Source: a virus. From it: a stretch of 64,000 nt of DNA. A program made the translations under genes and the position numbers. The stretch lies in IMG/VR virus record IMGVR_UViG_3300032224_000591, positions 103,757 through 167,756 of that record; one strand, 5' to 3'. Below are positions 10,209 to 35,801 of the stretch, in pieces (the stretch's first letter is position 1; every line of letters begins with the position of its first letter). The notes under the pieces were generated by a model. That model saw only the letters and a list, made by a program, of their open reading frames with translations. It was not told where the DNA came from and made no database searches.

Positions 10209-10239
10209 TTATACGGTTAGTCGCGCTAAATAGACTCGT

Positions 10240-10259: not shown

Positions 10260-10279
10260 GACTTCAATTGGAGTTTATT

Positions 10280-11403: not shown

Positions 11404-11415
11404 TTAAGGTACATA

Positions 11416-12156
11416 ATGTTCACATTCTTCCATCGTAAAAAGAGAGTGACGGTCGATTGCTTCACCTGCATTCCGGCAGTTCACGAGTATACACCAATCG
11501 TAAGAGCGTCTAAGACGATTCCCGATTGGTGGAAGAACTTGCCTAAAGTTGGGCCTCTTAAACGTGACGATGATGGAATATTTCAACTAGACAATAACAT
11601 GCGTCGGTGCTATGGTTTTCTAGAGCTCTACAAGCGTGGAGCTATCATTGAATCATGGACCGATGCGCACTTTGAGATAGCACCCGATACATATAGGTTC
11701 CATGTTACAATTGGTGATAAGCCTACATGGCATCTGAAAGAACAGTTCAAAGGTGGTTTCGATAACTATCATCATATTAAGTTAATGAGTCCTTGGCATT
11801 TCCGTGAGAAATCCGGAATGCCCTTTTTATTCATGGGAGCCGAATGGTCTATTGAGTTTCCATTTAAGGTTCTACCCGGAGTTGTTGAGTACCAGAACGT
11901 ATCAGGTACTCACATCAATATGATGGCTCCTAAGTATACTGATCCATACGAGATGACAATCAAGCTTGGGCAACCTCTTGTACATGTTATCCCATTACAG
12001 GACGATGTGCATGTAGACTTTAAGTCACATCTACTGACAAAGCCTGAGTTTGATAAGGTTACTCTTCACGGAGGTATATCATACGACGGTCTTCGAGGTA
12101 TGGTAGGTATGCGTAAAAGGAATGCTGAGAGGAAGTGTCCGTTTGGCTTCGGATAA
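11416..12156 (+). CDS. Conserved phage protein, unknown (possible oxygenase-associated)
   Basis: 246 residues beginning MFTFFHRKKRVTVDCFTCIP. It is rich in aromatic residues and His/Asp, with IVRASKTIPDWWKNLPK near the N-terminus and a C-terminal MRKRNAERKCPFGFG. The pattern IPDWWK resembles uncharacterised proteins that accompany 2OG oxygenases in marine myoviruses, but I cannot name a family. No signal peptide. It starts 12 nt after tRNA-Gly with a weak ribosome site. Confidence 0.7.
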   Translation: MFTFFHRKKRVTVDCFTCIPAVHEYTPIVRASKTIPDWWKNLPKVGPLKRDDDGIFQLDNNMRRCYGFLELYKRGAIIESWTDAHFEIAPDTYRFHVTIGDKPTWHLKEQFKGGFDNYHHIKLMSPWHFREKSGMPFLFMGAEWSIEFPFKVLPGVVEYQNVSGTHINMMAPKYTDPYEMTIKLGQPLVHVIPLQDDVHVDFKSHLLTKPEFDKVTLHGGISYDGLRGMVGMRKRNAERKCPFGFG

Positions 12157-12159
12157 ATA
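12152..12159 (+). promoter_or_regulatory. Late-promoter-like GATAAATA
   Basis: One mismatch to TATAAATA, 67 nt before the start of the large envelope protein gene; it fits late expression of that gene. Confidence 0.5.
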
Positions 12160-12174
12160 AACACATGAACGCAT

Positions 12175-12217
12175 CGTTATGAAATCCTGATGATTGGTAA
12201 TCCTCAATTTCATAACG
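12175..12217 (+). promoter_or_regulatory. 11-bp hairpin abutting ribosome site of envelope protein gene
   Basis: CGTTATGAAAT 12175-12185 pairs perfectly with ATTTCATAACG 12207-12217. The 3' strand touches the ribosome site GGAG (12217-12220). The structure may tune translation or protect the 5' end of the late message. Confidence 0.65.
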
Positions 12218-12226
12218 GAGTTTCAG

Positions 12227-14053
12227 ATGAAGAGATTTTTAGTAGCCCTAATTGGGCTATGCGCATTTACGTGTGCAGCCGTAGCACAGAACCTACCAGC
12301 CGGTTCGTTAGGAATCGTCAATAACAATACGCCAAACACATGGCAGACATTTACCTACTCGTTCACACCATCGACAACAGGTGCTAATTTCGTAGGTTTT
12401 GCATTTCGTCAGGATCCAGCATTCTGGACTTTCGACAATGTCAGACTAACAGCAGCTGGTTCATCAACCAACCTGCTAACTAACGGTGCCTTTGATACAG
12501 GCGGACAGTTCAGTGTAACAACCACTAACGGTCCTTCCTCTATGCAGGCACCAACTAATTGGGGCGTATGGTATCAAAATGGAACATATCCTGCTGCCGC
12601 TGGCACTTGGACTAACGTTGGGGGGACTCATGGTGGCGTATGGTATGACGGAGCTGTTGGCTCGTTCGACGGTATCTATCAAGGCGTGGCTCTCCAGGCG
12701 GGCACCACTTACACAATTTCTTTTGAAGTTAGCGGGAATCACGCTGCTGACAATGGTGCTGTTCAGCTTGGCATTTATGGCGGCGCTTGCGCAACTGTAA
12801 GTATTGCACCTAATCAGTGCACGATCCCACCATCCGCCGGATTCACTACGCTTGCTACACCTGCTCAAGGTGCAGCTGCTGGTGGACCTGCAGTTCCTAC
12901 TATCGTAAGTGAATTGCCTGGAACTCCTAGTGTATCATCATCTAGCGCCCCTGGCACATTAGTAACCACAACAGCAAGCACAAGAGGCACTTCAACAACG
13001 GCAATCGCCCGTTCAGATGCTGCTGCTAGATCCGTTAACAATATCAATATAACAAGAACTACTGTGACCACAGTTACGACGCCGGTCACAACTGTTACCA
13101 CGCGTACAACTCCTATCGTCACAACGACAACGACTATACCTAGAACAGTCACAACGTGGAGCGATGGTACCACAACGACAACTGATGGAACACCGGTTGT
13201 CACACGCACAACAACCAATCAGATTGTCACATCATCAGCAATAGCTAACGATGTACAGTCGACAACGGGAACACAATCACAGTCTGTTAGCTCTAATGGT
13301 GCTAAGAGTGCTGTGTCTTATCGTAACAATAATCCATTCATTGTCGACACACTAAGTCAGAAAGATGGTGCATGGATCAGTCCATCGGCTAGCTACTACA
13401 AGTCAGTAGGTAGCATGTCATCAGGTGGCATCGCTGCTGGTTATCAATGGACTGTTGAGAATAACACGTTCGGTACTGCATTTGCATACAACAGTGCAAA
13501 GAGTGGTGGACTAGTTGGATCTGATGTTCAAGCTGTCACCTACGATGGTGTTGCATATGCACTTAGCAAGCAGGATGGTGTTTGGTTCAAGGGAACCATT
13601 GGCTATGGTTATGGTGACTACACAACCAACACATCGATCCCACTATTTGCCCTGTACAATACGGGTAAGATGAAGCAAAAGTCATACGTAGCTGACCTGA
13701 CTCTTTACAGTGCAGCAGACTACATAGGCTTCCGTCCACTGATTGGCGCTACGATCAATAAGAGCCAGATTGAGGCTTCTGCTGCTGGTAGTCCACTATT
13801 AGACACTACGGGTGACATCAAGTCTACAACTACGGTAAATCCATATGTAGGTGCTAGATATGACTTCACAGATAGTGTGGGTATCGAGATGAGAGCCACA
13901 CAGACTAAGGACTTCAAAACAGTCGGTGGAATCCGCGCTGTTGCCAAGACTGAGCTGTTTGATGGTGTGTTCCTGAATGCTACGGTAGGACTAGATAAGG
14001 GAACAGGCTATCAAGCAGCCTCCGGAACACTAGGTATCAAGGTCGCCTTTTAA
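12227..14053 (+). CDS. Exported passenger plus C-terminal beta-barrel protein (autotransporter-like)
   Basis: 608 residues from ATG 12227 (GGAG 12217-12220). A signal peptide (MKRFLVALIGLCAFTCAAVA-Q) is followed by a Gly/Asn/Thr-rich beta domain to about 215 with carbohydrate-binding-like features (FDNVRLTAAG, GTTYTISFEVSGN). A Thr/Val-rich low-complexity linker (about 240-350) follows, then a C-terminal domain of about 250 residues with alternating hydrophobic strands (WFKGTIGYGYGDY, VGIEMRATQTKDF) and terminal Phe (GIKVAF), as in autotransporter barrels. Likely inserted in the outer membrane of the infected host or exposed on its surface. Unusual for a phage. Alternative: host-derived adhesin. 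Confidence 0.75.
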   Translation: MKRFLVALIGLCAFTCAAVAQNLPAGSLGIVNNNTPNTWQTFTYSFTPSTTGANFVGFAFRQDPAFWTFDNVRLTAAGSSTNLLTNGAFDTGGQFSVTTTNGPSSMQAPTNWGVWYQNGTYPAAAGTWTNVGGTHGGVWYDGAVGSFDGIYQGVALQAGTTYTISFEVSGNHAADNGAVQLGIYGGACATVSIAPNQCTIPPSAGFTTLATPAQGAAAGGPAVPTIVSELPGTPSVSSSSAPGTLVTTTASTRGTSTTAIARSDAAARSVNNINITRTTVTTVTTPVTTVTTRTTPIVTTTTTIPRTVTTWSDGTTTTTDGTPVVTRTTTNQIVTSSAIANDVQSTTGTQSQSVSSNGAKSAVSYRNNNPFIVDTLSQKDGAWISPSASYYKSVGSMSSGGIAAGYQWTVENNTFGTAFAYNSAKSGGLVGSDVQAVTYDGVAYALSKQDGVWFKGTIGYGYGDYTTNTSIPLFALYNTGKMKQKSYVADLTLYSAADYIGFRPLIGATINKSQIEASAAGSPLLDTTGDIKSTTTVNPYVGARYDFTDSVGIEMRATQTKDFKTVGGIRAVAKTELFDGVFLNATVGLDKGTGYQAASGTLGIKVAF

Positions 14054-14055
14054 GG

Positions 14056-14084
14056 TGTACAAACTCTCTCCATCGTGGTATAAT
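14056..14084 (+). promoter_or_regulatory. Early/middle promoter, TGTACA-N17-TATAAT
   Basis: TGTACA 14056-14061, TATAAT 14079-14084 preceded by GG, starting right after the stop of the envelope protein gene. Confidence 0.85.
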
Positions 14085-14107
14085 ACTTAAATGATGGAGA
14101 GAGACAC

Positions 14108-14338
14108 ATGACTGAAGTTATCCAGTTCCCACTGCAATCTAGAGATGCTACGATTATCCAGGGAGTAGCAACTCAGCGGCCTTATAACAAGGCTAAGTAC
14201 GTTGCCCTCATCGAGAGGTTCTTGACTGAGGATGATTTCGATTTTGTGATGAGAGCCATTGAGGAACCATTCCTCTATGCTGCTCTTGAGCCTCAACTGC
14301 AAAAGATCGTTGACTGTTACTTTAGTTACGATTCTTGA
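14108..14338 (+). CDS. 76-aa early protein, unknown
   Basis: Starts 24 nt after the promoter at 14056-14084, with GGAGAGAGAC as ribosome site. Acidic, helical C-terminal half (FLTEDDFDFVMRAIEEPF). No recognised family. Confidence 0.68.
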   Translation: MTEVIQFPLQSRDATIIQGVATQRPYNKAKYVALIERFLTEDDFDFVMRAIEEPFLYAALEPQLQKIVDCYFSYDS

Positions 14339-14340
14339 TG

Positions 14341-14348
14341 TATAAATA
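14341..14348 (+). promoter_or_regulatory. Late-promoter box TATAAATA
   Basis: Exact consensus, 27 nt before the ATG of the ArfA-like peptide; spacing suits a short leader with AAAGGTG ribosome site. Confidence 0.65.
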
Positions 14349-14374
14349 AACTTACGAACACGCAAAGGTGCACC

Positions 14375-14503
14375 ATGACTAAGCAGATTACACATCGTAA
14401 TCCAGTTGCTAAGGCTCTGAAGAGCCAGTCTTGCCGTGCGCGTGTGGTCGCTGCTAAACGCGGCAAGGGTTCCTACAAACGTCAGAGCTTCAAAAAGTTC
14501 TGA
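14375..14503 (+). CDS. ArfA-like ribosome-rescue peptide
   Basis: 42 residues behind the late box at 14341. The sequence NPVAKALKSQSCRARVV then RGKGSYKRQSFKKF resembles bacterial ArfA, whose conserved core is a short helix ending RQRV followed by KKGKGSYxRK. ArfA recruits RF2 to ribosomes stalled on non-stop mRNAs. The phage copy ends soon after the GKGSY motif, as active truncated ArfA does. Followed 6 nt later by tRNA-Lys. The match is by eye; a chance basic peptide remains possible. Confidence 0.65.
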   Translation: MTKQITHRNPVAKALKSQSCRARVVAAKRGKGSYKRQSFKKF

Positions 14504-14509
14504 GGTCAC

Positions 14510-14586
14510 GGATCCTTAGCTCAGTAGGTTAGAGCAGCGGTCTTTTAAACCGACGGTCCCGGGTTCGAATCCCGGAGGATCCACCA
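14510..14586 (+). tRNA. tRNA-Lys(TTT)
   Basis: Acceptor GGATCCT/AGGATCC, anticodon loop CTTTTAA, T-arm CCGGG-TTCGAAT-CCCGG, encoded CCA. Confidence 0.95.
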
Positions 14587-14611
14587 TTATTCTTATTCAA
14601 AGTTTTATATC

Positions 14612-14710
14612 ATGTGCAATCTACGTGACTTTATTATGGTAGTGATTATGTGCAACTTGATTGCAATCTTAGCATCTTGTGTTATAATTGCATTGAGTTA
14701 TTGGAATTAG
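14612..14710 (+). CDS. Possible 32-aa membrane peptide
   Basis: ATG 14612 to TAG 14708-14710. The peptide MCNLRDFIMVVIMCNLIAIL is almost entirely hydrophobic, with three Cys. No ribosome site is seen and the region also contains a sigma70-like promoter, so this may be a chance frame. Confidence 0.25.
   Translation: MCNLRDFIMVVIMCNLIAILASCVIIALSYWN
14671..14698 (+). promoter_or_regulatory. Host-like sigma70 promoter before porin gene
   Basis: TTGCAA 14671-14676, 16-nt spacer, TATAAT 14693-14698, located 34 nt before the porin start codon. The -35 differs from the TGTACA phage class, suggesting the gene came with its own promoter. Confidence 0.5.
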
Positions 14711-14731
14711 AAACAAACAAGGAGCAATAAA

Positions 14732-15283
14732 ATGCAAAAGACTATCATTACGGCGCTTGTTCTTCTTGCGTCGACAGCAGTGGCTTCGGCTACTGATCTG
14801 CCAAGCAAGACGAAGGCACCGTCTCTACCCACTCTAGCTCAGTCAACAGACTTCTACGCTGGTGTGAATGCAGGCGGTAACTTCAACGATGCACGCGTCT
14901 ATTCTGGTGGTGCTGTTGCTGGCTGGAACGTCCTACCGTTCCTCGCAGTAGAAGGTACATACGACTTTTCTGTTCCACAGAATAAGATCAAGGGTGATTA
15001 CAACTACCAGAATACGGTTGCTGTAAACGCTGTACCGCAGTACAAGGTTCCCGCTCTTCCAGTCACTGTCTATGCACTAGGCGGCGCTGGCTATCGCTGG
15101 AACACTGCAGCTACCGTAGCGGATATTTCCGTTTATAACTTCGGTGCTGGTGCTAAGTATGAGTTTGCTAAGGGGATCGAAATCGATGGTCGCTACCGTC
15201 GTATTGATGCCATTGAGTCAAAGAACCGTACTTCGACTTCGGCCGAAGATCGTGCTACGATTGGTGTGAACGCAAAGTTCTAA
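14732..15283 (+). CDS. Omp25-like outer-membrane beta-barrel protein
   Basis: 183 residues with AAGGAG ribosome site. Signal peptide MQKTIITALVLLASTAVASA, mature start TDLPSKTKAPSLP, which resembles the ADLP...AP start of Rhizobiales Omp25/Omp31 porins. About eight amphipathic strands follow (DFYAGVNAGGNF, VYALGGAGYRW, FGAGAKYEFAKGIEIDGRY) and the chain ends in Phe (GVNAKF), the Bam recognition signal. It probably inserts in the host outer membrane during infection; roles could be receptor masking or envelope support. A terminator follows. Confidence 0.85.
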   Translation: MQKTIITALVLLASTAVASATDLPSKTKAPSLPTLAQSTDFYAGVNAGGNFNDARVYSGGAVAGWNVLPFLAVEGTYDFSVPQNKIKGDYNYQNTVAVNAVPQYKVPALPVTVYALGGAGYRWNTAATVADISVYNFGAGAKYEFAKGIEIDGRYRRIDAIESKNRTSTSAEDRATIGVNAKF

Positions 15284-15295
15284 TCTAGTACTAAG

Positions 15296-15333
15296 CTCAG
15301 GCGCAGTGATCACAGATACTGCGCCTGAGTTGT
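15296..15333 (+). terminator. Intrinsic terminator after porin gene
   Basis: CTCAGGCGCAGT 15296-15307 pairs perfectly with ACTGCGCCTGAG 15318-15329 (10-nt loop), followed by TTGT. A 12-bp GC-rich stem with a weak U-tract. Confidence 0.85.
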
Positions 15334-15346
15334 ATGCAAATAGCAG

Positions 15347-15374
15347 TGTACAAACCTGACCGGCGTGATATAAT
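15347..15374 (+). promoter_or_regulatory. Early/middle promoter, TGTACA-N16-TATAAT
   Basis: TGTACA 15347-15352 and TATAAT 15369-15374, spacer containing GACCGGCGTG. Heads the operon beginning at 15404. Confidence 0.85.
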
Positions 15375-15403
15375 ATACTAATGAATAAGACGAGGTTAAC
15401 ACT

Positions 15404-15760
15404 ATGAATGATTTCAACACAGCACTGACTAAAAACTATACGAAGTTGTCGCTCATCACGGTAGCTTCATTATCGAGTACCCTTGGTCTTCGTACCGAGT
15501 TAGCTATCATCCTGAATGATATGGCCATGGCTACGTGGATCTCTATCATGTGGGTTTTTATCATCATCGCCGTCTTGGCCTACTACAAGTCTAAAGCTGA
15601 TGTTGAGTTGGAAAAGTTTCGCGAGGGCGAGAAAAATCGCATCTTGATGGGTCTAAAACCACTCTCCACGTATACATACACAGGCCAGTCTGAACAGGTG
15701 ATTGGCAAGGAAACATTGGATCGCCTAAACTCAGTGGATACTAAAGTTAGGGAGAAGTGA
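15404..15760 (+). CDS. Small membrane protein, unknown
   Basis: 118 residues. Two hydrophobic segments, about 17-45 (LITVASLSSTLGLRTELAII, weak) and 46-64 (ATWISIMWVFIIIAVLAYY, strong), followed by a charged cytoplasmic helix. First gene of an operon of overlapping small genes running to 18707. Function unknown. Confidence 0.7.
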   Translation: MNDFNTALTKNYTKLSLITVASLSSTLGLRTELAIILNDMAMATWISIMWVFIIIAVLAYYKSKADVELEKFREGEKNRILMGLKPLSTYTYTGQSEQVIGKETLDRLNSVDTKVREK

Positions 15761-15761
15761 A

Positions 15762-15962
15762 ATGAACCGCTTTATCGTAAAGTACGACATTAAGCATACC
15801 GAGCGTTCGTCTCTTTTGAGTGGTGTGCTCATGCCTGAGCAGTGCAAGTTTGTTAATCTGCAGGATGCGATCAAGTTCGTTCGTGCGATGCGTGGTCATC
15901 GCACTCCTAAGTACGAGGTTGTTGGCATGCCTGTCATCGAGCACATCTCTAACTTCTCATGA
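15762..15962 (+). CDS. 66-aa protein, unknown
   Basis: MNRFIVKYDIKHTERSSLLS; alpha/beta mix, basic. One nt after the previous stop; its end overlaps the next gene (ATGA). No family recognised. Confidence 0.68.
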   Translation: MNRFIVKYDIKHTERSSLLSGVLMPEQCKFVNLQDAIKFVRAMRGHRTPKYEVVGMPVIEHISNFS

Positions 15963-16747
15963 GCGACTGGGAAACTAAAGAAAACCTCACTAGAATGCGT
16001 AGCGGTGAAGCTATCGCTGCTTTTGACTCTGATGTATATAGTGAACTTGAGAAAACGTATGGAAAATATCTCTATGTGCCATATGATGTGCCAAAGATAC
16101 TTCCATACGACATCAACAAGTTTGTAGACTTCTACTTCCGCAATGCTAAGTTCTCCCAGAAATTGAGAGAGGACATTGCGGAAGGTATCCCACCAAAGTA
16201 TGAGACTACACCCTATCTGTCTGTTGATGGCGATGAAACCAATAAGAACTCAGTGTGGAGTAAGAACAGGGTACCAGAGATCTTCACGGAATTTCCGGAA
16301 ATCTTTGAGCAGATAAATGAGTATATGCCATGGGTGAATGGTCCACAGAGTTTGTCGTGGACGATGTGGTCCAGCGCTAAGGACATACTACCTCATCGTG
16401 ACCTAAAGTCTATGTTGGATATGCCTATCAGGGTACGAATAAAGTTATTCGATAGTAATCCTGTGGAGACATTGAGTGTTCAACTTGCACCGGTCGAAAA
16501 GGATCAGGGTGAGTTCATTCCGCTAAGCATTCCAAGTGATACTAACTCGTTCGCCTGGAATAATCTGAGGACGCGTCATAGGAGTTTGTTTACTCCTCCA
16601 TATAGGAAAATACTGATGATCTTCTTTGCTAACTACAAAGGAGTGTCGATGAATAAGTACGTAGACATGCTTGATAGAAGTGTCCACAAATACAAGGATC
16701 ATCTGATTGTAGACAATCAGACAACAGCGAAGGATTATATATTATGA
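15959..16747 (+). CDS. Aspartyl/asparaginyl beta-hydroxylase-like 2OG oxygenase
   Basis: 262 residues. Near residue 140 the text WSSAKDILPHRDLKSMLDMP gives an HxD pair (His-Arg-Asp), followed by RVRIKLFD and SFAWNNLRTRHRSLF with the distal His and then an Arg-containing strand PPYRKILMIFF. This order fits the 2OG-Fe(II) beta-hydroxylase family. It is the third such enzyme in the window. Substrate unknown. Overlaps both neighbours by 4 nt. Confidence 0.68.
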   Translation: MSDWETKENLTRMRSGEAIAAFDSDVYSELEKTYGKYLYVPYDVPKILPYDINKFVDFYFRNAKFSQKLREDIAEGIPPKYETTPYLSVDGDETNKNSVWSKNRVPEIFTEFPEIFEQINEYMPWVNGPQSLSWTMWSSAKDILPHRDLKSMLDMPIRVRIKLFDSNPVETLSVQLAPVEKDQGEFIPLSIPSDTNSFAWNNLRTRHRSLFTPPYRKILMIFFANYKGVSMNKYVDMLDRSVHKYKDHLIVDNQTTAKDYIL

Positions 16748-17244
16748 TGAAGTTTGTGATCGTCCCAGCTATGGCTCTTGCTCTGGCTGGCTGCAACATG
16801 GAACCTTCTAGTGATCGCCAACAGCGTGAGCAGCAGGAAGCAATTTCGAAACAAAGCCATATGGCCGTAGGCATGCCTGCTATCACTCGCTTCTCTGAGA
16901 AGCGTATGATGAAAGACATCCTAGAGATGCGTGATCAGATGCATCCTACCTACACGTACCTTGTCGGTGAACAGGCCGGTGTGATTGGTGAGAAGGTTTG
17001 TGACTCACTTGGTTATGGCCTCAACGGCGCTACGCAGTATACTAATCCTCAGAAAATGACATACTCTGATGGTGGTGGACATGTGCTAGTTCTCCCTCAG
17101 GCTGATCCTAATGGTTTGTTCTCACCCGCTACCACCGAAGGTACGTGGGTGATGTGTAAGGTTCCTGGTACTGATAAGATCTTGCCTCAGTATATCGAGC
17201 CTCGTGTTATTGTGCTGACATTCCCCAAAGAAGCGAGGAAGTGA
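16744..17244 (+). CDS. Lipoprotein, unknown
   Basis: 166 residues. Signal peptide MMKFVIVPAMALALAGC with lipobox LAGC (Cys17), then a polar mature part with two further Cys. Targeted to the envelope. Overlaps both neighbours by 4 nt. A role in lysis or exclusion is possible but not shown. Confidence 0.78.
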   Translation: MMKFVIVPAMALALAGCNMEPSSDRQQREQQEAISKQSHMAVGMPAITRFSEKRMMKDILEMRDQMHPTYTYLVGEQAGVIGEKVCDSLGYGLNGATQYTNPQKMTYSDGGGHVLVLPQADPNGLFSPATTEGTWVMCKVPGTDKILPQYIEPRVIVLTFPKEARK

Positions 17245-17438
17245 TGAAAAAGCTGAGTGAATATAATAGAGATAAGGGCGAAAGTTCGAAACCCTCTATC
17301 GGTTATGCAAATGTGAAATGCGATGATTGTGATGTTGAAATGTACTATGACAATCCATATGTTGCTCTTGCAAGTTTGCCAATGCAGCAATCAGTTGTTT
17401 GTCCTAAATGCAACAAACGTGACTATAAGGTGCTGTGA
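17241..17438 (+). CDS. Zinc-ribbon-like small protein
   Basis: 65 residues with two CxxC pairs: KCDDCDVEMY and VCPKCNKRDY, about 28 residues apart. Likely binds one zinc ion. Could be a transcription or translation modulator; no specific family. Confidence 0.7.
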   Translation: MMKKLSEYNRDKGESSKPSIGYANVKCDDCDVEMYYDNPYVALASLPMQQSVVCPKCNKRDYKVL

Positions 17439-17794
17439 TGAGCTATAAGAATGATGCAAAAGAAGTCGCCCAGTTCTTTTCCCTGTTTGGGTTTGGTGTT
17501 TGGGGAATAGTGTTGGTACTCCTGCCGCTGATTGGTGGTCTTGGATATATTTCCTACCTTGCGTATTCGTTCTATGCTCCCAAGTATGAGCAGGTTCGCT
17601 ATGATACGTTCAAGCAGAGTCAGACGTACAATGATGGTATGCTCCGTGACCTGCAGGATCTGCAGATGGAGTACATGAAGGCTAACGACGAACAGAAGGC
17701 TGCTATGAAGGCAATCATCCTTCACCGCTTTGCTGTCTATGACGTTAATCGTCTGCCAATCGACCTTCGTTCATTCTATCAGAGTATCCGATAA
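17435..17794 (+). CDS. Membrane-anchored helical protein, unknown
   Basis: 119 residues with one strong transmembrane segment at about 18-45 (LFGFGVWGIVLVLLPLIGGL) followed by a long charged helix. Overlaps neighbours. Function unknown. Confidence 0.7.
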   Translation: MMSYKNDAKEVAQFFSLFGFGVWGIVLVLLPLIGGLGYISYLAYSFYAPKYEQVRYDTFKQSQTYNDGMLRDLQDLQMEYMKANDEQKAAMKAIILHRFAVYDVNRLPIDLRSFYQSIR

Positions 17795-18039
17795 TGAATC
17801 TCGAGGGTGGAGAGATTTATAAGAAGTTTATGGATGAGGGTAAGCTAATGCAGTTTATGGTTAAGCATCAGAAGTCACTGCAGTATGAGATTGACTATCT
17901 GAAGACTCAGCTAAAGGATCATGACACTGGTCATATCCGTACCGCTATCTCTGTGCTAGAGGAGCGTGTAGTTGAGATTCAGAAGTATATCGACAGTGTA
18001 CACGATATGATTATTAGAGCGCAGGCGGTGCTAGGATGA
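17794..18039 (+). CDS. Coiled-coil small protein, unknown
   Basis: 81 residues, predicted coiled coil (YEIDYLKTQLKDHDTGHIRT). Starts in a TAATG overlap with the membrane-anchored protein before it; the two may pair. No known domain. Confidence 0.66.
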   Translation: MNLEGGEIYKKFMDEGKLMQFMVKHQKSLQYEIDYLKTQLKDHDTGHIRTAISVLEERVVEIQKYIDSVHDMIIRAQAVLG

Positions 18040-18707
18040 AAGTAAACATTGGTCCCTATTTGACTTGGTACGGTCCTTATCAGATCGCTGATATGATTTT
18101 CTTTTGGATTAAGACCAGGGGCATTTATCTGAAGGATGATGACCCGCTCAATGAGCGTTGGGACTATGTAGCAAAAGAAAAGTTTGGTGACTGGCTGGCT
18201 GATACTTGGGTTGCTAATTTCTGTAACTGGATCCAGGATAAGCGTAAGCGCACAGAAAAGGTTGAGATTCATCATTATGACGTATGGTCCATGGATCACA
18301 CGCTCGCGCTTATCATTCATCCTATGCTGGTAAAGCTAAAGGAACAGAAACATGGGGCTCCCTTTACCGAGGATAAAGATGTTCCAGAGCATTTGCGCTC
18401 TACCTCTGCACCTCCGCTGACTGAAGATGAAAAAAACTGTGGTTCTACTGATAAGCTGTTCTTCGATCGCTGGGAATATATTCTTAATGAGATGATTTGG
18501 GCTTTCTATCAAGCTGCAAAAGACGATCCGGACGCGCCTGAACAACCTAAATTCTATACGCGCAAGCTGCTTGACAATGATTTCGATGATTCTCCTGATA
18601 ACGTTGAAGCTTGGAAAAACTATCAAGTGGAAAATGTCAAGTTTGAGAAGCGTAAAGAGAACGGTTATTTGCTATTTGGTAAATACTATCGTGGGCTGTG
18701 GGACTGA
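18036..18707 (+). CDS. Conserved phage protein, unknown
   Basis: 223 residues. Trp/Tyr-rich start (MKVNIGPYLTWYGPYQIADM), acidic centre (TEDKDVPEHLRST), ending YLLFGKYYRGLWD. It resembles an uncharacterised protein common in T4-like phages that reads GPYQIA near its start; I recall no function. Ends 4 nt before tRNA-Gln. Confidence 0.72.
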   Translation: MKVNIGPYLTWYGPYQIADMIFFWIKTRGIYLKDDDPLNERWDYVAKEKFGDWLADTWVANFCNWIQDKRKRTEKVEIHHYDVWSMDHTLALIIHPMLVKLKEQKHGAPFTEDKDVPEHLRSTSAPPLTEDEKNCGSTDKLFFDRWEYILNEMIWAFYQAAKDDPDAPEQPKFYTRKLLDNDFDDSPDNVEAWKNYQVENVKFEKRKENGYLLFGKYYRGLWD

Positions 18708-18711
18708 TTGA

Positions 18712-18786
18712 TCGGGGTTAGTTTAATAGGTAGAACGAAGGACTTTGAATCCTTTGGTCGAGGTTCGAGTCCTTGCCCCCGAGCCA
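18712..18786 (+). tRNA. tRNA-Gln(TTG)
   Basis: Acceptor TCGGGGT/CCCCCGA (one mismatch at 7-66), anticodon stem AAGGA/TCCTT, loop CTTTGAA, G73, encoded CCA. Confidence 0.92.
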
Positions 18787-18802
18787 ACGTTGGAGATATA
18801 TG

Positions 18803-18997
18803 ATGAACGATAAGTTGATAGCAGAGCTTGTCAATAAAGACAAAATTATTGATGATTTGAAGGCAACGATGCGGGACGCAATGTTTCAAATCAATTGTGA
18901 AGACCCTTGGCAAGCCTACGAAATTCTTGAAGAAGCGGTACAAAAAAACAACGGCGATTGGGAAAAATTAGATGTTGTTCTTCAGCAAGAATGTTGA
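18803..18997 (+). CDS. 64-aa acidic helical protein, unknown
   Basis: ATG 18803 is 7 nt from GGAG 18792-18795; ATG 18800 is possible. MNDKLIAELVNKDKIIDDLK is coiled-coil-like. Its 3' end overlaps the next gene by 26 nt. Confidence 0.6.
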   Translation: MNDKLIAELVNKDKIIDDLKATMRDAMFQINCEDPWQAYEILEEAVQKNNGDWEKLDVVLQQEC

Positions 18998-19181
18998 GAA
19001 ACGAATTGCTTGGAAGATTGAGATTGATGGTATTACCACAGAAGGTAAACCAATCTATCACGTTTACAAAGCAAGAGCACCTTATGGCATGGATTTAGTT
19101 TGTGAGTTCCATGACTATGATATGGCAAAACGATTTGTAGAAAAGCACATCGACTTTCCTGTCTATTTCTACGAGGATTAG
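18972..19181 (+). CDS. 69-aa protein, unknown
   Basis: MLFFSKNVEKRIAWKIEIDG then an alpha/beta pattern ending DFPVYFYED. Overlaps the previous gene by 26 nt in another frame. Function unknown. Confidence 0.62.
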   Translation: MLFFSKNVEKRIAWKIEIDGITTEGKPIYHVYKARAPYGMDLVCEFHDYDMAKRFVEKHIDFPVYFYED

Positions 19182-19184
19182 CAA

Positions 19185-19469
19185 ATGCCTTTTGGTGGAT
19201 ATAACCCATTAGATGATGGCGAGTATGAAGATTTTTCGCCATGGTTCAAACCTGAAAGAAAAGTGGAAAAAGTAGTGACAGAGACTTTAACATTCACCTG
19301 CAAAGAACTATACGACCTCTATAAGTGGATTGATGCTATGGATCCAAAGCCGCATCTTATTAAGATCTATAGCACGCAGACCGGCATCGGTCCATCTCTG
19401 CGTGCTGAGATTGATAACGGTGAAGGTGAAGGGATCTATAAGGACTTTACCGACTATGAGAGTTGGTAA
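19185..19469 (+). CDS. 94-aa acidic protein, unknown
   Basis: MPFGGYNPLDDGEYEDFSPW; acidic, mostly soluble, with central TLTFTCKELYDLYKWIDAMD. Ends 10 nt before tRNA-Val. Function unknown. Confidence 0.65.
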   Translation: MPFGGYNPLDDGEYEDFSPWFKPERKVEKVVTETLTFTCKELYDLYKWIDAMDPKPHLIKIYSTQTGIGPSLRAEIDNGEGEGIYKDFTDYESW

Positions 19470-19479
19470 ATAGAGTAAT

Positions 19480-19555
19480 GCCCGGTTAGCTCAGCGGTAG
19501 TAGCATTTCCTTTACACGGAAAATGTCGGCGGTTCGATCCCGTCACCGGGTACCA
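19480..19555 (+). tRNA. tRNA-Val(TAC)
   Basis: Acceptor GCCCGGT/ACCGGGT, anticodon stem TTTCC/GGAAA, loop TTTACAC, encoded CCA. Its CCA abuts the stop codon of the convergent o-spanin gene. Confidence 0.93.
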
Positions 19556-29791: not shown

Positions 29792-31063
29792 ATGCGCTCA
29801 TTTCTAGCTTTCTTAAGAGAAGACTTCCTGGTTGAAAGGGACACTAGTGCGGCTGCAGCCGCTAGTGCTAATAACAATGCACTTGGTGCTGCATATGAAA
29901 CAGCCACTGCATTAAGACTTCATTCGATGACGGGATCATCAAAGAATAAGGATGCAGCTCATAAGAAGCGTATTGAGAGAATGCAGACACTACACGATGC
30001 CTCTATGACTTCTCTCTCACCTGAGAAGCAAAAGCAGGTCCTAGAGTATGCCAATAACTCTGCTACGGCATATCTAGATAGCTTGAAGAAGAATAAGGGT
30101 ATTAAGCCTGAGGATATTCATGAGGTTCATCACACGTATGCTGGTATCGATGATCTGATGGGCAAGAAGGTTGATCGTGCCGGTAACCCACACGACATTG
30201 CTATTAAGACGAAGGACGGCACACTGCATGGTGCATCACTAAAGTTTAAGCCTGGCACATTAAGTAACTCAACAACTAATACATTCGATCAGGCATCTAA
30301 TGCAGCTGGTATCAAGACAGATATTACTGGAATTTGGAATGCTGCTAAGAAGAAGGCTGGTTTAGAAGGCCTATCAGGTAAAGAGATTAAAGCTAGACGT
30401 GAAGATCCACAAGTTCTAGCAGCCAATAAGGCTGCACAATTAGCAGCCGCTAAACATCACTCAGAGGCTTTTAATTCAGCAAAACCGGCTCAGAAGAAAG
30501 CAATGCTTCAAAGCCTGATGAAGACATCTCCTGACTTAGACTATGATTATGTTGTAGGTTCAAAGAAGACGTCTGAACCTATTATGGAGAAGAAGCATAC
30601 GCAGGTTGTTAACAACGCAAAAGACTTTAAGGCTACACATACGCCTGGCGGTGTTGTTCATATTCATGACCAAGATGGTAATCATGTTATGTCGTATGAG
30701 CATCGTCCAACTCATGGTGCATTCTCATCCATACAGGTTAATGGTAAGCTAGGTAATCTTGGTGGAAAGAAGCCAGCTGCACCAGCCGCAAAGCCTATTG
30801 CTAAACCACCAACTACAAAGCAAACTATTAAGAAGGTTATTGGCGGACGCGCGCGCAATCCATCCGCTCCTAAGCCAGTTAAGTCTGCAGCCGCTGCCGC
30901 CGTTCAAACAGCAGCACAACCTGCTCGAGCTGCACAGATGGCACCGCCACCTAAACCTGCTCCAGCACCTACACCGACGCCATCAACTGGTAATTATCTT
31001 CAGGCTCCACCACCACGCATGAAGATTCAGAATCATATTAACACGATAAAGAAAACAAACTAA
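29792..31063 (+). CDS. Putative internal head protein with capsid-targeting-like N-terminus
   Basis: 423 residues. It starts MRSFLAFLREDFLVE, similar in shape to the T4 capsid targeting sequence MKTYQEFIAEA, which the prohead protease removes. The middle (about 120-180) looks globular (AGIDDLMGKKVDRAGNPHDIAI, split here for length: DDLMGKKVDRAGNPHDIAI). The C-terminal 100 residues are Ala/Pro/Lys-rich and disordered. Likely packaged in the head and possibly injected. Enzymatic role unknown. Overlaps the next gene by 1 nt. Confidence 0.68.
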   Translation: MRSFLAFLREDFLVERDTSAAAAASANNNALGAAYETATALRLHSMTGSSKNKDAAHKKRIERMQTLHDASMTSLSPEKQKQVLEYANNSATAYLDSLKKNKGIKPEDIHEVHHTYAGIDDLMGKKVDRAGNPHDIAIKTKDGTLHGASLKFKPGTLSNSTTNTFDQASNAAGIKTDITGIWNAAKKKAGLEGLSGKEIKARREDPQVLAANKAAQLAAAKHHSEAFNSAKPAQKKAMLQSLMKTSPDLDYDYVVGSKKTSEPIMEKKHTQVVNNAKDFKATHTPGGVVHIHDQDGNHVMSYEHRPTHGAFSSIQVNGKLGNLGGKKPAAPAAKPIAKPPTTKQTIKKVIGGRARNPSAPKPVKSAAAAAVQTAAQPARAAQMAPPPKPAPAPTPTPSTGNYLQAPPPRMKIQNHINTIKKTN

Positions 31064-33180
31064 TGCTAGTTTTTAAGAACTATCTAATCGAGTCACTCGA
31101 CATCGAGAAGCTAAAGCATCTTGAGCATGCAGAGGATCATATTGTCAATGCTGGTAATGAAGGTGTTGCTCATGCCCATGACTCGATGATGGATGTGATT
31201 AAGATTATTGAAGGCATGCCTACAAAGAGCATCATTACAACAAAGTATGATGGTGCACCTTCTATTGTGTTTGGAATTAATCCAGAAAATGGTAAGTTCT
31301 TTGTAGCATCAAAGTCTGCATTCAATAAGAATCCAAAGCTAAACTATACACCTGAAGACTGTGAGACTAACCACGGCCATGCACCTGGACTTGTGGCTAA
31401 ACTTAAGGCTGCCCTTGAGGAACTGCCTAAGATTATGCCTAAGAAGGGTGGTGTGTTCCAGGGCGACCTAATGTACACCAAGGATGATGTTAAGGACGAT
31501 GGTGATAGCTATAGCTTTACACCTAACACAATCACATATAGTGCAAAGAAGGATGGTCCACGCGGGCGTAATATCACTGCCGCAAAGCTAGGTGTTGTTA
31601 TTCACTCGTATTATGAAGGTAAGACCCTAGCTGATGCTAAGGTTAGATTTGACCTAGACCATGGTCAGTTCCGTAAGGATGCAGACGTTGATGCGATCAA
31701 TCCTGAGATTGGTCCAACATCTATTAGCCCGATGGAGAAGAAGAAGTTTGAGAGAGAAATTGAAGAGGCCAATCAAGTATTTGCTGGCATGGACTCTGAC
31801 TGGTATAATGTTCTCTCTGGCCATGAGATTACAATCAAGACTTATATCAATGACCTGGTCCGTAAGGGCACATGGAAGAATGCAAGTGCTGATGGATATA
31901 TCAAATTCCTAGGTGATAGAACTACTAAGGATATTGATGCATATGCTAAGAAGGCAACAAAGCCTGAGTTGATTGCAAAGAAAAGAGAGAAGCTGCTAGC
32001 TGACTTCAAGCTTATCTCAGACCACATCAAGCTTCATAAGCAGCAGTTCAACTCAATCTTCAAGCTTCATAGTACGCTACAGAGAGCTAAGGATACATTA
32101 GTTGGTTCTCTATCACGTGCAGATAATGGGTTCACAACAACAAGCGGTGGTGAAGCTGTTAAACCTGAAGGATTTGTCATCATTCGTAATGGCAAGCCTA
32201 CAAAGCTCGTTGATCGTGCTGAGTTCTCACGTAATAACTTCCTTCGTGGTTCTTTCCAGAAGATGGGTGAGGATGAGCCGGCTGATAGCGCAATGCCAAA
32301 AAAGCCTATTGTTACTACCTTTGGTCGTATGAATCCACCTACATATGCCGGTCACGGTGCAGTTGTTGGTAGAGTTCAAGAGCTTGCTAAAGAGAATAAG
32401 GCTCAGGCTGATATTACACTTTCAAGATCACAGGATCCTGAAAAGAATCCATTGACACCAGAGCAGAAGCTGAAGCATGCAAAGCGTATGTTCCCCGGTG
32501 CTCCTATTCGTATCACTGATGAAGATGCACCTAGCATTATCGATCATGTCAAGAAGCTAGCAGCGGCGGGACATGATCATCTTATTATGGTCGTCGGTTC
32601 TGATCGTGTTGAGGGTATTAAGAAGCTTCTCGATAGCTATAATGGTAAAGAGTATAACTTCAAGAAGATTGATGTTGTATCTGCCGGTGAACGTGACCCC
32701 GATAGTGAGGCAGATGACGATGAGAAGCCACAGTCCGCTGATGATGTAAGACGTAAAATGTCTGCATCTAAAATGCGCCGTCACGCTCTAGCAGGTAAGA
32801 AGGCAGACTTCAGAGCTGGTATGCATCCAACTGCATCTGATGAGCATGTCGATGAGATGTACAATGAAGTACGTCAGGGCATGGATATTAAGATCGATGC
32901 TAATACTCCTATGAGGTCTCTATTAAACCACGCTCGTCGTAAGGACAAGATTGGTACACGTGCACGTAATGAGGTGAAGCGCCGCGAGCTTGCTAGAACT
33001 GTTGCAAAGCAGCAGACCGCAAGAGCAAAGGTAGCTAAGAAGGTTCAACCTAAAGTAGCAGCCCCGAAGCCTATCAAGGCGGCCCAACCAAAACCAGCAG
33101 TACCTAAACCACCTATGAAATCGATTCGTGAAGAGTTTATATCAAACCTATTGCAAACTATAAGAGAGCGAAATTGGTAA
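31063..33180 (+). CDS. Fusion of ligase-type and HxGH-type nucleotidyltransferase domains
   Basis: 705 residues in two enzyme domains. Residues about 50-390 resemble the ATP-dependent RNA/DNA ligase fold: motif I ITTKYDGAPS with Lys61, GGVFQGDLMY (motif III-like), KPEGFVIIRNG (motif IV) and KLVDRAEFSR (motif V). Residues about 415-600 are a nucleotidylyltransferase: TTFGRMNPPTYAGH (GxFxPxHxGH-like), VVGSDR, and SASKMRRHAL in place of ISSTxIR. A basic Lys/Pro-rich tail follows. The N-terminus MLVFKNYLIESLD resembles a capsid targeting sequence, so the enzyme may be packaged. Reaction unknown; NAD or end-repair chemistry is plausible. Confidence 0.75.
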   Translation: MLVFKNYLIESLDIEKLKHLEHAEDHIVNAGNEGVAHAHDSMMDVIKIIEGMPTKSIITTKYDGAPSIVFGINPENGKFFVASKSAFNKNPKLNYTPEDCETNHGHAPGLVAKLKAALEELPKIMPKKGGVFQGDLMYTKDDVKDDGDSYSFTPNTITYSAKKDGPRGRNITAAKLGVVIHSYYEGKTLADAKVRFDLDHGQFRKDADVDAINPEIGPTSISPMEKKKFEREIEEANQVFAGMDSDWYNVLSGHEITIKTYINDLVRKGTWKNASADGYIKFLGDRTTKDIDAYAKKATKPELIAKKREKLLADFKLISDHIKLHKQQFNSIFKLHSTLQRAKDTLVGSLSRADNGFTTTSGGEAVKPEGFVIIRNGKPTKLVDRAEFSRNNFLRGSFQKMGEDEPADSAMPKKPIVTTFGRMNPPTYAGHGAVVGRVQELAKENKAQADITLSRSQDPEKNPLTPEQKLKHAKRMFPGAPIRITDEDAPSIIDHVKKLAAAGHDHLIMVVGSDRVEGIKKLLDSYNGKEYNFKKIDVVSAGERDPDSEADDDEKPQSADDVRRKMSASKMRRHALAGKKADFRAGMHPTASDEHVDEMYNEVRQGMDIKIDANTPMRSLLNHARRKDKIGTRARNEVKRRELARTVAKQQTARAKVAKKVQPKVAAPKPIKAAQPKPAVPKPPMKSIREEFISNLLQTIRERNW

Positions 33181-33185
33181 ATACC

Positions 33186-33254
33186 ATGTCAGCAGAAAGC
33201 TACGGCAATCCTGCAAAATTCATGGTTAAGCCCACGGGAATCACCAATGTCTGA
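33186..33254 (+). CDS. Possible 22-aa leader peptide
   Basis: ATG 33186 to TGA 33252-33254, MSAESYGNPAKFMVKPTGIT, overlapping the next start by 8 nt (ATGTCTGA). The downstream gene has a poor ribosome site, so translational coupling through this peptide is plausible. Short; could be chance. Confidence 0.35.
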   Translation: MSAESYGNPAKFMVKPTGITNV

Positions 33255-34302
33255 AGAAACGAAGTCTCCTACTAGTCCTCAGCTAGCGTTCGACGAATCG
33301 AGCGGGCTTGCCGTAGTCCTGACACCTAAACAAACTGTCTCCCTATACAAGAAATCAAAGTCATCTGGAATCCCGTTTGATACACTGGAGGAAGTGTATC
33401 GCCGTGGGTATTCAGAGACATTATCAGAACAGGTTGCATACGACCGTATCAACTCATTCATCGCAGGCGGAGCAGCTATAATGATAGATAAAGACCTTTT
33501 AGAAGATGCTAAAGGATATAAAAATCCAACCGGTGGATTAACTCAAAAAGGGCGTGACCACTATAATAGAGAAACCGGTGGACATTTAAAGGCACCAGTA
33601 ACTACTTCCCCATCAAAATTAAAGGCTGGTTCAAAAGCAGCAGGCCGTCGTAAATCATTTTGTGCCCGTATGGGTGGTGTTGAAGGCCCAATGAAAAAGC
33701 CAAATGGTGAACCCACACGAAAGGCATTAGCATTGCGTAAATGGAATTGTCGTAGCGAAGAAACACAGATTGATGAAAAGACATGTAATTGCTGGGATGG
33801 TTATAAGCGTGTTCGAGGAACAAAACCGTGCGCTCCGGGCTCATGTGTCAAAGAATCTAATATTACTGAAAAGCGTGGGCTATGGGATAATATCCATGCC
33901 AAGCGCGAAAGAATTAAGCACGGATCAGGAGAGCATATGCGTAAGCCTGGATCTAAAGGTGCTCCTTCAGCCAAAGACTTGAAAGACTCACAGGTTACTG
34001 AAGTATCAGCCGAGTTAGTCGGTAAGGTTAATAAAGCCAGAACAATTGATAAGAGGCCGAGTAAAACCGAAGCTGGTGCAAAGACATTGCAGCTAGCCGT
34101 CAAGAAGGCGTTTATCGGTAAGAGTGTCAAGGAAGCCTATACCAACGGAGAGCCAATCTCTGCAAACAAGGATGATGCATCAAACCGTTTTACTGGCACA
34201 GACTCTCTAGTTCAGAACTACAAAGAAACTACACCAGGTCAATCTAGCCGACTAAGTATTATCAAGAAGGTGGTAAGGGAATCTAGATGTACAAATGATT
34301 AG
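33247..34302 (+). CDS. Basic protein with DUF6321-like segment, putative virion protein
   Basis: 351 residues, strongly basic. The segment from about 98 to 160 (GGLTQKGRDHYNRETGGHLK, SFCARMGGVEGP, RKALALRKWNC) is a conserved block I recall from many large phages, thought to be DNA/nucleoid associated but uncharacterised. Two Cys-rich turns follow (TCNCWDGY, CAPGSC). Located among putative head proteins. Confidence 0.68.
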   Translation: MSEETKSPTSPQLAFDESSGLAVVLTPKQTVSLYKKSKSSGIPFDTLEEVYRRGYSETLSEQVAYDRINSFIAGGAAIMIDKDLLEDAKGYKNPTGGLTQKGRDHYNRETGGHLKAPVTTSPSKLKAGSKAAGRRKSFCARMGGVEGPMKKPNGEPTRKALALRKWNCRSEETQIDEKTCNCWDGYKRVRGTKPCAPGSCVKESNITEKRGLWDNIHAKRERIKHGSGEHMRKPGSKGAPSAKDLKDSQVTEVSAELVGKVNKARTIDKRPSKTEAGAKTLQLAVKKAFIGKSVKEAYTNGEPISANKDDASNRFTGTDSLVQNYKETTPGQSSRLSIIKKVVRESRCTND

Positions 34303-34342: not shown

Positions 34343-34951
34343 ATGCTGAAGTTTAGAGATTATGTAACAGACAGGGCTACGCTGTTTGTGTTTGATATTG
34401 ATGATACGATGTTCCATACCACAGCCAAGGTTAAGGTTGTGAGGAATGGTAAGATTGTAAAGACTTTGGATACAAGTGAATTCAATACGTATACACTTGG
34501 ATCAGGTGAGCATTATGACTTTAGTGAGTTCCATGATGCTAAGAAGTTTCATGATGAGTCGGTACCTATTGAGAAGATGTTGGAGACTGTAAAGAAGATT
34601 CATGCTTTGGTCCGCAAGGACCCCAATAGTAGAGTTATCATAAATACAGCAAGAGCGGACTTCGATGACAAAGTTACGTTCTTGAACACGTTTCGAAAGT
34701 ACGGTATCAATATCGATGGTATTCATGTTGAGCGCGCCGGCAATATTCCTGGTAAGGAAGCGCCTGCCTCAAAGAAGGTATCGATCCTGAAGAGGTACAT
34801 CGATCTTTTGAAATTTAAGAAGGTAGTCATGTATGACGACAGTAAGTCGAACCTGAAGGCTTTATTGTCTATGAAGAATGAATTTCCAGACGTCAGGTTC
34901 GTCGCTTATCATGCACAACCCGATGGGTCTATTAAACACTATGGAGTATAA
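34343..34951 (+). CDS. HAD-superfamily phosphatase
   Basis: 202 residues. HAD motif I FDIDDTMF (Asp18, Asp20), motif II INTARAD near 100, motif IV VVMYDDSKSN near 165. Resembles the polynucleotide 3'-phosphatase / acid-phosphatase HAD type. The N-terminus MLKFRDYVTD also has the FxxYx(T/L)-like start of the head-targeted group. May process nucleic-acid ends together with the ligase-like protein upstream (inference). Confidence 0.82.
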   Translation: MLKFRDYVTDRATLFVFDIDDTMFHTTAKVKVVRNGKIVKTLDTSEFNTYTLGSGEHYDFSEFHDAKKFHDESVPIEKMLETVKKIHALVRKDPNSRVIINTARADFDDKVTFLNTFRKYGINIDGIHVERAGNIPGKEAPASKKVSILKRYIDLLKFKKVVMYDDSKSNLKALLSMKNEFPDVRFVAYHAQPDGSIKHYGV

Positions 34952-34954: not shown

Positions 34955-35371
34955 ATGGAAACGTTAATTGGCATTGCATTTATTCTAGCGGTTGGTTTTG
35001 TTCTTTGGAAGGTCCTTGTTAAGAAGGAGACCGTTCAAGAGGCAGTTAATGAAACAGTGGCTGATGTGAAGAGCGCAGCTGATGTTAATAAGGATGGACA
35101 GATTAATACGGCAGACCTAGTAGCCGCTGTTCAAGAGATTAAGGCGGTTGAGGCTAAGGTTGAAGTGGTCGTTAATAAAGCTACAGAAGAAATCAAGGCT
35201 AATATCGATGCTAAGACAGAAGAAGCTTTTGTTAAGGCGATGGAAGAAGCCGCTAAAGTTGAAGTAGCTGTCGAGAAGGCAGTTGAAGAGGTTAAGGTTG
35301 TTGCTGAAAAAACCAAAGCGGTTGTTAAGAAGGCAACATCACGTAAGAAGAAAGTAAAGAAGAATGGATGA
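34955..35371 (+). CDS. Membrane-anchored Lys-rich coiled coil with EF-hand-like loop
   Basis: 138 residues: an N-terminal transmembrane helix (LIGIAFILAVGFVLWKVLV), then ADVNKDGQINTADLVAAV, a dockerin/EF-hand calcium loop (DxNxDGxI), then a long Val/Glu/Lys heptad-rich helix ending KKATSRKKKVKKNG. Overlaps the Dps gene by 8 nt. Role unknown. Confidence 0.7.
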   Translation: METLIGIAFILAVGFVLWKVLVKKETVQEAVNETVADVKSAADVNKDGQINTADLVAAVQEIKAVEAKVEVVVNKATEEIKANIDAKTEEAFVKAMEEAAKVEVAVEKAVEEVKVVAEKTKAVVKKATSRKKKVKKNG

Positions 35372-35801
35372 GCTTATTGAGCAAATGAAGGTGTCTCTTG
35401 CTAGCACCTTTGCTTTCTATTTGAAAGCCCACAATTTTCATTGGAATGTGGAAGGTCCAAACTTTCCACAGTACCACGAGTTTTTAGGCGATCTCTGGGA
35501 GGAAACATTTGCAGCTGTCGACGGAATTGCTGAGCACCTTCGTACTCTTAGGGCTTATGCTCCAGGCTCTCTTTCACGCTATACTGAGCTATCAATTGTT
35601 CACGATGAAGTAAATATCCCATCAGCTATGGCTATGTTTCAAAAGCTTAGCTCTGATAATGATATGCTTCTTGCGCAACTTACGAAGACACAAACTCTAG
35701 CCGAATCTAATAAGAAGATGGGTTTAGCTAATTACCTACAGGATCGCATCGACGCCCATGAGAAGCATGGCTGGATGATCCGTTCAACTATAAAGGGCTA
35801 A
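35364..35801 (+). CDS. Dps-family ferritin-like protein
   Basis: 145 residues. FYLKAHNFHWNVEGPNFPQY then HEFLGDLWEETFAAVDGIAE carries the Dps ferroxidase residues (His, Asp, Glu in HNFHWNV...D..E). Dps dodecamers oxidise iron and bind DNA. A phage copy could protect DNA in the cell or in the head, since neighbours look head-associated. AATGGATGA start overlaps the upstream gene. Confidence 0.9.
   Translation: MDELIEQMKVSLASTFAFYLKAHNFHWNVEGPNFPQYHEFLGDLWEETFAAVDGIAEHLRTLRAYAPGSLSRYTELSIVHDEVNIPSAMAMFQKLSSDNDMLLAQLTKTQTLAESNKKMGLANYLQDRIDAHEKHGWMIRSTIKG

Follow-up and report, generated by a model that had tools for sequence, protein, structure and literature searches.

A predicted ligase-type and nucleotidylyltransferase fusion protein with a capsid-targeting-like leader: a candidate injected end-sealing enzyme

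In a 64,000-base stretch of viral DNA (hereafter the window; positions 103757-167756 of the 167,756-base virus record IMGVR_UViG_3300032224_000591, whose own genome comprises 221 genes) we identified an ATG-initiated open reading frame (ORF), at 31063-33180 on the + strand, that encodes 705 residues plus a stop and fuses two nucleotidyltransferase-like domains behind a leader resembling the capsid-targeting sequence (CTS) of phage T4. Judging by its modelled structure, the first domain, DUF6267, very probably belongs to the covalent lysyl-nucleotidyltransferase fold class, and the second, on the same kind of evidence, almost certainly has the HUP/HIGH nucleotidylyltransferase fold. As a ligase-type and an adenylating domain stand here behind a head-loading-like tag, this T4-like phage may deliver a preformed repair enzyme together with its DNA; our tentative reading, to which we assign a probability of roughly 0.4, is that the fusion protein would seal nucleic-acid ends at the start of infection as part of a heal-and-seal kit. 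A preliminary description of this DNA had listed a 705-residue protein with K61-Y-D-G, a C-terminal domain with GRMNPPxxxGH and SASKMR, a capsid-targeting-like N-terminus and a basic tail, and the ORF indeed contains them all (the last 133 residues hold 31 K+R versus 14 D+E). Its parts are as follows.

31063-33180, + strand: the 705-residue fusion gene, comprising CTS-like leader, DUF6267 domain, HUP nucleotidylyltransferase domain and basic tail
31063-31092, + strand: CTS-like leader MLVFKNYLIE, with aromatic residues at 4 and 7, L8 and E10
31114-32247, + strand: DUF6267 domain, residues 18-395, predicted covalent-nucleotidyltransferase (ligase) fold (AlphaFold2, Foldseek, conservation)
31243-31254, + strand: motif I, K61-Y-D-G, invariant in 74 rows
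31312-31314, + strand: K84, motif Ia-like, in FFVASK (T4 Rnl1: ILFKSK), invariant
31459-31467, + strand: motif III-like Q133-G-D135, D135 invariant
31729-32112, + strand: residues 223-350, a helical insertion that separates motif IIIa from motif IV, helices in the AlphaFold2 model
32167-32217, + strand: motif IV, E369-G-F-V, and motif V-like K381-L-V-D-R385, with E369, G370 and K381 invariant
32296-32913, + strand: predicted HUP/HIGH nucleotidylyltransferase domain, residues ~412-617 (CTP_transf_like, AlphaFold2, Foldseek)
32323-32355, + strand: GRMNPPTYAGH, a (T/H)xGH-type motif, with R, P, G and H invariant
32761-32778, + strand: SASKMR, counterpart of the NMNAT ISSTxxR, with S and R invariant and K conserved in at least 90%
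32914-33177, + strand: basic Ala/Pro/Lys tail with a short C-terminal helix

Residues 18-394 match the Pfam family DUF6267 (PF19782; E=2.7e-86, 290.7 bits against a gathering cut-off of 27) over positions 2-373 of the 376 in the model, making the protein a full-length member. Its PHROG matches are to families 455, 3041 and 395, residues 4-395 corresponding to PHROG 455 (unknown function) and residues 410-650 to cytidyltransferase PHROGs. An AlphaFold2 model of the DUF6267 domain, based on 74 homologues, reached a pLDDT of 91.5 and a pTM of 0.88, and covalent nucleotidyltransferases (DNA and RNA ligases and capping enzymes) made up, by our own count of the rows, 35 of its top 50 Foldseek matches in the PDB, none of them at E<0.001. 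The matches included SsoLig (probability 0.72), LigI, LigIII, LigIV and TbREL1, and further Naegleria Rnl, T4 Rnl2, capping enzymes and LigA; in the viral structure library BFVD, also searched with Foldseek, the matches ranking below members of the family itself again include RNA and DNA ligases and a capping domain. Across the 74 rows K61, D63, G64, K84, D135, N155, Y159, E369, G370 and K381 are invariant, R385 is nearly so and V372 is conserved in at least 90%. The key residues are kept, down to ~25% identity, in those cyanophage, Pelagibacter and Vibrio phage members that cover them (the P-TIM68 protein, as annotated, begins downstream of K61), and such strict conservation of K61, E369 and K381 is what would be expected if these residues were catalytic. 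Also conserved, N-terminal of motif I, are H19, H22, E24 and D25, and the insertion at residues 223-350 shrinks to 58-69 residues in some cyanophages. The motifs run in the order I, Ia, III, IIIa, IV, V, that of ligases. The string K.DG...EG.[VIL]...K is weak evidence in a single sequence, arising in 4.7% of shuffles of the fusion protein; it occurs in 101 of 102 family ORFs and, among 216 unrelated ORFs with a length of 300 residues or more, in a single one. Motifs III-V as first described hold in their order and in motif IV (EGFV), whereas GGVFQGD (D for E) and PTKLVDR (K...R) deviate.

As a mixed full-length alignment misplaced the C-termini of rows having the N-terminal domain only, the second domain was folded separately. 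The resulting AlphaFold2 model (pLDDT 88) matched NadD, PPAT, NMNAT and FAD synthetase structures by Foldseek, each with a probability of 1.00 and NadD on top; CTP_transf_like matches 61 of 68 members, and the conserved motifs are GRxNPPTxxGH, GxDR and SxxKxR, so that the HUP fold, (H/T)xGH and ISSTxxR-like motifs are all present. PPAT and FAD synthetase structures score like NMNAT, and fold and motifs do not discriminate substrate; the NMNAT identity proposed earlier is one of several that fit. Both folds that had been proposed are consistent with the modelling, the HUP fold firmly and the ligase-type fold through converging weak evidence.

The joining of the two chemistries is not unique to this protein, the same two domains of the DUF6267/PHROG 455 family being present in hundreds of T4-like phages. 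A tblastn search with the fusion protein matched 547 phage records, in 203 of which a single place accounts for 80% or more of its length; the records include T4-like cyanophages, Pelagibacter phage HTVC008M, Methylophilales phage Melnitz and Stenotrophomonas phage DLP6. Of the phage records, 469 have DUF6267 and 554 the second domain, the excess being largely enterobacterial and Pseudomonas phages with the second domain, several of them jumbo-sized. In 104 DUF6267 loci, the window included, the second domain is nearly always encoded by the following gene or a nearby one, and it is fused to DUF6267 in 13 of these loci and in re-sequenced S-PM2. The pair adjoins gp43-uvsX-gp41, with a conserved gene order beside gp41, and the PHROG 455 profile itself extends over the second domain and a P-loop domain. 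Based on the fact that the partners are usually neighbours and sometimes fused, we regard the fusion as a variant of a conserved pair, and their adjacency or fusion in almost all loci, with their co-occurrence in cyanophages, argues for a functional linkage. The original S-PM2 record (L023, NC_006820, 5986-7765) shows the fused gene as two, p141 and p142; as the re-sequenced LN828717 has a single 591-residue ORF, this split may be a sequencing error. A distant DUF6267 protein is encoded at 2456-3538 in Vibrio phage EniLVp02 (L191), a Straboviridae phage with a DNA ligase and an RNA ligase, with no annotated cytidyltransferase adjoining.

In T4, the first ten residues are enough for packaging, residues 4 and 7 serving targeting and 8 and 10 processing; gp21 cleaves after L/I-x-E, and an Asp at position 10 stops processing but not targeting (PMC9026906). 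The leader of the fusion protein, MLVFKNYLIE, matches at every mapped position (T4 ipII/ipIII: MKTYQEFIAE), residues 1-11 are disordered in the AlphaFold2 model, and a prohead-protease cut is predicted from the sequence after E10 (L-I-E); the genome encodes a gp21-type prohead protease (PF03420, E=1.7e-40). As a loose pattern (6 of the 221 genes) took in likely chance matches, position-exact patterns were used. With E10 the strict pattern occurs in 3 of the 221 genes versus 0.04 expected from shuffled N-termini, with E or D at position 10 in 4 of the 221 versus 0.10 expected by shuffling, and at internal methionines in 0 of 1028, i.e., the resemblance noted in the preliminary description exceeds chance. 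The four strict starts are those of the fusion, an upstream ORF (MRSFLAFLRE), a downstream HAD gene (MLKFRDYVTD) and a distant ORF (MQSFTEYLTE), and three of the four genes sit in the fusion's 5-kb cluster. The distant one, a 242-residue ORF at 61812-62540 of the window that matches PHROG 36119 (unknown), is a candidate further injected protein. In relatives, a looser CTS pattern was found in 80 of 90 separate DUF6267 ORFs, all 11 fused ORFs and 30 of 82 separate second-domain ORFs, compared with 38 of 505 other ORFs; at least one partner carries it in 68 of the 73 loci where both domains are separate.

Published virion proteomes contain second-domain proteins, namely T4-GC190 in S-SM1 (PMC3037559), S-SZBM1_140 in S-SZBM1 (PMC9146016), gp154 in S-CREM2 (PMC10665884) and ORF91 in S-SCSM1 (PMC9602691), with the warning from proteome authors that such virion-detected proteins could be contaminants of CsCl purification (PMC9602691). 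CTS-like starts are seen in S-SZBM1_140 (MRFRQFIIEA), S-CREM2 gp154 (MKNFSSFLTEA) and S-SCSM1 ORF91 (MKSFLQFLKEA); the DUF6267 proteins S-SZBM1_141 (MAKNTHLEHLED) and S-CREM2 gp87 have no such start. The proteomes place tagged second-domain homologues in virions and not untagged DUF6267 proteins, and we consider it probable that the fusion protein itself is packaged, as had been proposed.

The genes around the fusion include a putative healing partner.

29792-31063, + strand: upstream 423-residue ORF, CTS-like start MRSFLAFLRE, no family match
33247-34302, + strand: ORF with a DUF6321 domain (Pfam E=4e-25), between the fusion and the HAD gene
34343-34951, + strand: HAD phosphatase, PNK-phosphatase-like, start MLKFRDYVTD, PHROG 415 'polynucleotide kinase' (E=7e-8)
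35364-35801: ferritin-like/Dps-type protein of the same cluster (Pfam Ferritin 2.7e-20; PHROG 'DNA binding protein')

The HAD gene begins 1.16 kb downstream of the fusion, and its previously noted end-healing type agrees with the PHROG 415 match. Because an iterated HAD search drifted to unrelated proteins, a motif filter was used for the tally, which placed a HAD like the window's near DUF6267 in 21 of 104 loci, often CTS-tagged. Full CTS-like leaders stand on HAD genes near DUF6267 in loci L008, L009, L010, L012, L013, L002 and L040 (e.g., MKTFKSFLTESGLHMFDIDD). Such leaders suggest that the phosphatase is packaged too. In addition, 39 ORFs carry a P-loop domain after the second domain, and in three loci the P-loop domain has a gene of its own; that of HTVC008M matches Zeta_toxin (3e-13), AAA_33 (4e-11), the PHROG family polynucleotide kinase (8.5e-8) and L-seryl-tRNA kinase (2.5e-10). 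A NadR-like identity of this attached kinase is not supported, as it matches Zeta, AAA_33, PNK and PSTK models and gave no match to a nicotinamide-riboside kinase model. A kinase, a 3'-phosphatase and a ligase form the standard phage RNA-repair set (PMC7824862). The window also holds 31 tRNA genes (4811-19555 and 58261-58774) that together serve nearly all amino acids, with 25 lying between 4.8 and 10.2 kb, and this set would fit a setting of tRNA conflict.

Homologues of the 423-residue upstream ORF were found in loci L001 and L002 only, with no match beyond these at E<1e-4, be it to S-SCSM1_90, S-SZBM1_142 or others. S-SCSM1_90, annotated as a virion protein, and S-SZBM1_142 lie upstream of the second domain and have a string similar to one in this ORF, the similarity not being significant; in the ORF itself, D135 and 'GASLK' recall the nuclease-like D...SxK pattern. 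The string CWxGYxxxGTK..C of the DUF6321 ORF was seen by eye in the virion-detected S-SZBM1_139 and S-CREM2 gp160, and also in proteins of loci L010 and L079.

According to the mechanism that we tentatively favour, the fusion protein would be carried inside the head and injected together with the DNA. Its first ~10 residues would steer it to the prohead core and then be removed by the gp21-type protease. DUF6267, as a divergent covalent lysyl-nucleotidyltransferase, would take up AMP on Lys61 for the sealing of nucleic-acid ends, and the HUP domain would move AMP from ATP to a phosphate-bearing partner. The CTS-tagged, PNK-phosphatase-like HAD protein would complete a heal-and-seal kit delivered at time zero, to which relatives may add a PNK/PSTK-like P-loop kinase fused to or beside the second domain. 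The likeliest task would be repair of RNA (e.g., host-cut tRNAs) or of broken genome ends, both putative substrates.

Several observations weigh against this end-sealing proposal. The Foldseek comparison gave no ligase in the PDB at E<0.001 and low TM-scores (0.1-0.2), and the best local hhalign match between DUF6267 and T4 Rnl1, which puts motifs IV-V in register, is weak (E=0.077). Searches for PDB sequence links of the N-terminal domain, by phmmer and two profile searches, gave chance matches alone. Motif III reads QGD, with the invariant D135 where ligases have E; motif V is K...R, the place of the second KxK lysine being taken by a non-basic residue; and the AlphaFold2 model shows no OB fold, having a helix alone between motif V and the linker. 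As for packaging, the fused S-PM2 protein has no CTS, the untagged S-SZBM1_141 and S-CREM2 gp87 were not among the detected virion proteins (PMC9146016, PMC10665884), and we found no virion proteome for any fused, CTS-bearing member in the literature.

An unlikely alternative is that the pair is concerned with NAD+, the second domain being an NMN or NaMN adenylyltransferase that is injected to replenish NAD+ when host defences deplete it and DUF6267 using NAD+ or regulating the process, for instance as an NAD+-dependent ligase whose freed NMN is recycled by the fused NMNAT. NAD+-dependent ligases carry an NMN-binding domain Ia ahead of motif I, and the conserved H19, H22, E24 and D25 lie on that side. 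NadD is the top Foldseek match of the second domain, with human NMNAT also listed, phage NARP pathways are established, and the NMNAT-P-loop kinase fusions of jumbo phages have been interpreted as serving NAD+ synthesis (PMC7824862). However, PPAT structures fit the second domain at least as well, the NAD+-ligase matches of DUF6267 rank below those of ATP-type ligases, no NAPRTase was found in the virus's own genome, and the attached kinase matches, as described above, Zeta/AAA_33/PNK/PSTK models. Less probable still, in our estimate, is that DUF6267 is the missing DNA ligase of T4-like cyanophages, with a replication role in the gp43-uvsX-gp41 cluster and virion loading as a secondary matter. 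Cyanomyoviruses have no T4 g30 homologue, and a 2010 review allowed for an unrecognised distant one (PMC2984593); DNA_ligase_A_M, DNA_ligase_aden and RNA_ligase gave no match in the virus's own genome, and no ATP- or NAD-dependent DNA ligase was found there or in the 11 tested Kyanoviridae records with DUF6267 (S-PM2, HTVC008M, S-CREM2, S-SZBM1, Melnitz-3, C48C1, P-RSM6, S-PRM1, P-TIM40, S-RIM2 and P-TIM68). The conserved gene order beside gp41 agrees with such a role, whereas the CTS argues for delivery ahead of replication, the host LigA can substitute, and four DUF6267 records (DLP6, EniLVp02 and the metagenomic contigs L011 and L021) contain a gene for an ATP-dependent DNA ligase too, for which reason strict mutual exclusion was rejected. 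Replacement of a DNA ligase by DUF6267 is accordingly possible, but not in an exclusive manner.

It is likewise doubtful, and a shade more so, that the domains modify or bind proteins or form a non-catalytic component of the head core, the ligase-like fold being reused for AMPylation of a host target or for a structural role. The deviant motifs III and V, the lack of a significant sequence link to an active ligase, and the occurrence of inhibitors and protein modifiers among the other internal proteins of T4 (IPI, Alt) speak for this; the strict conservation of the putative catalytic residues to ~25% identity and the linkage to kinase and phosphatase partners speak against it. Finally, we give little credence to a more elaborate scheme in which the HUP domain itself adenylylates 5'-phosphate ends or makes NAD+ and hands the product to the fused ligase fold; if true, the virion would deliver a machine in which one fold activates the ends and another, unrelated one seals them, and this machine would also be the unrecognised ligase of the T4-like cyanophages.

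Virion-borne second-domain proteins and the NMNAT reading of this domain have been published before, while the proposed ligase fold of DUF6267, the CTS match and the co-tagged HAD are new as far as we have searched; no paper naming DUF6267 was found in the literature searched. Hundreds of genomes of T4-like phages, among them those of most marine cyanophages, encode DUF6267 and its partner domain, a pair with no assigned function. A ligase-type enzyme in the head would, if confirmed, be a new kind of injected effector and may explain the apparent absence of a ligase in cyanophages that was left open by the 2010 review (PMC2984593), and the CTS would provide a simple sequence rule for spotting other injected proteins in environmental phages.

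Among known systems, the closest are the DUF6267/PHROG 455 proteins of T4-like cyanophages, Pelagibacter and Methylophilales phages, with which the fusion shares its domains, conserved residues and neighbourhood; fused forms exist there too (S-PM2, 591 residues), the window's protein adds the CTS-like leader and basic tail, and the ligase fold of this family without assigned function is the proposal of the present analysis. T4 Rnl1 (RnlA) and other covalent nucleotidyltransferases have in common with DUF6267, in the same order, the KxDG motif, a TK/SK motif Ia, EGhV and the motif V lysine (T4 Rnl1 reads KEDG...FKSK...EGYV...FKIK). The predicted fold resembles that of ligases and capping enzymes, but sequence similarity is not significant, and DUF6267 differs in having GD for GE, K..R for KxK, no OB fold, a long helical insertion before motif IV and an N-terminal HLEHxED helix. 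With NadD/NMNAT, PPAT (CoaD) and FAD synthetase the second domain shares the HUP fold, (T/H)xGH and SxxKxR; unlike them it has DUF6267 as a fused or separate partner, and in relatives also a PNK-like P-loop domain. Phage NAD+ pathways (the NARP1 Namat and the NadR-like NMNAT-kinase fusions of jumbo phages) likewise use a HUP adenylyltransferase, often with a P-loop kinase, whereas here there are a ligase-fold partner and a CTS, and no phosphoribosyltransferase was found in the virus's own genome. Lastly, as in T4 IPI-III and Alt, the fusion leader has residues 4, 7, 8 and 10 in place and the genome encodes a gp21-type protease; the payload, presumably packaged in the same manner, would in this case be a pair of nucleotidyltransferases.

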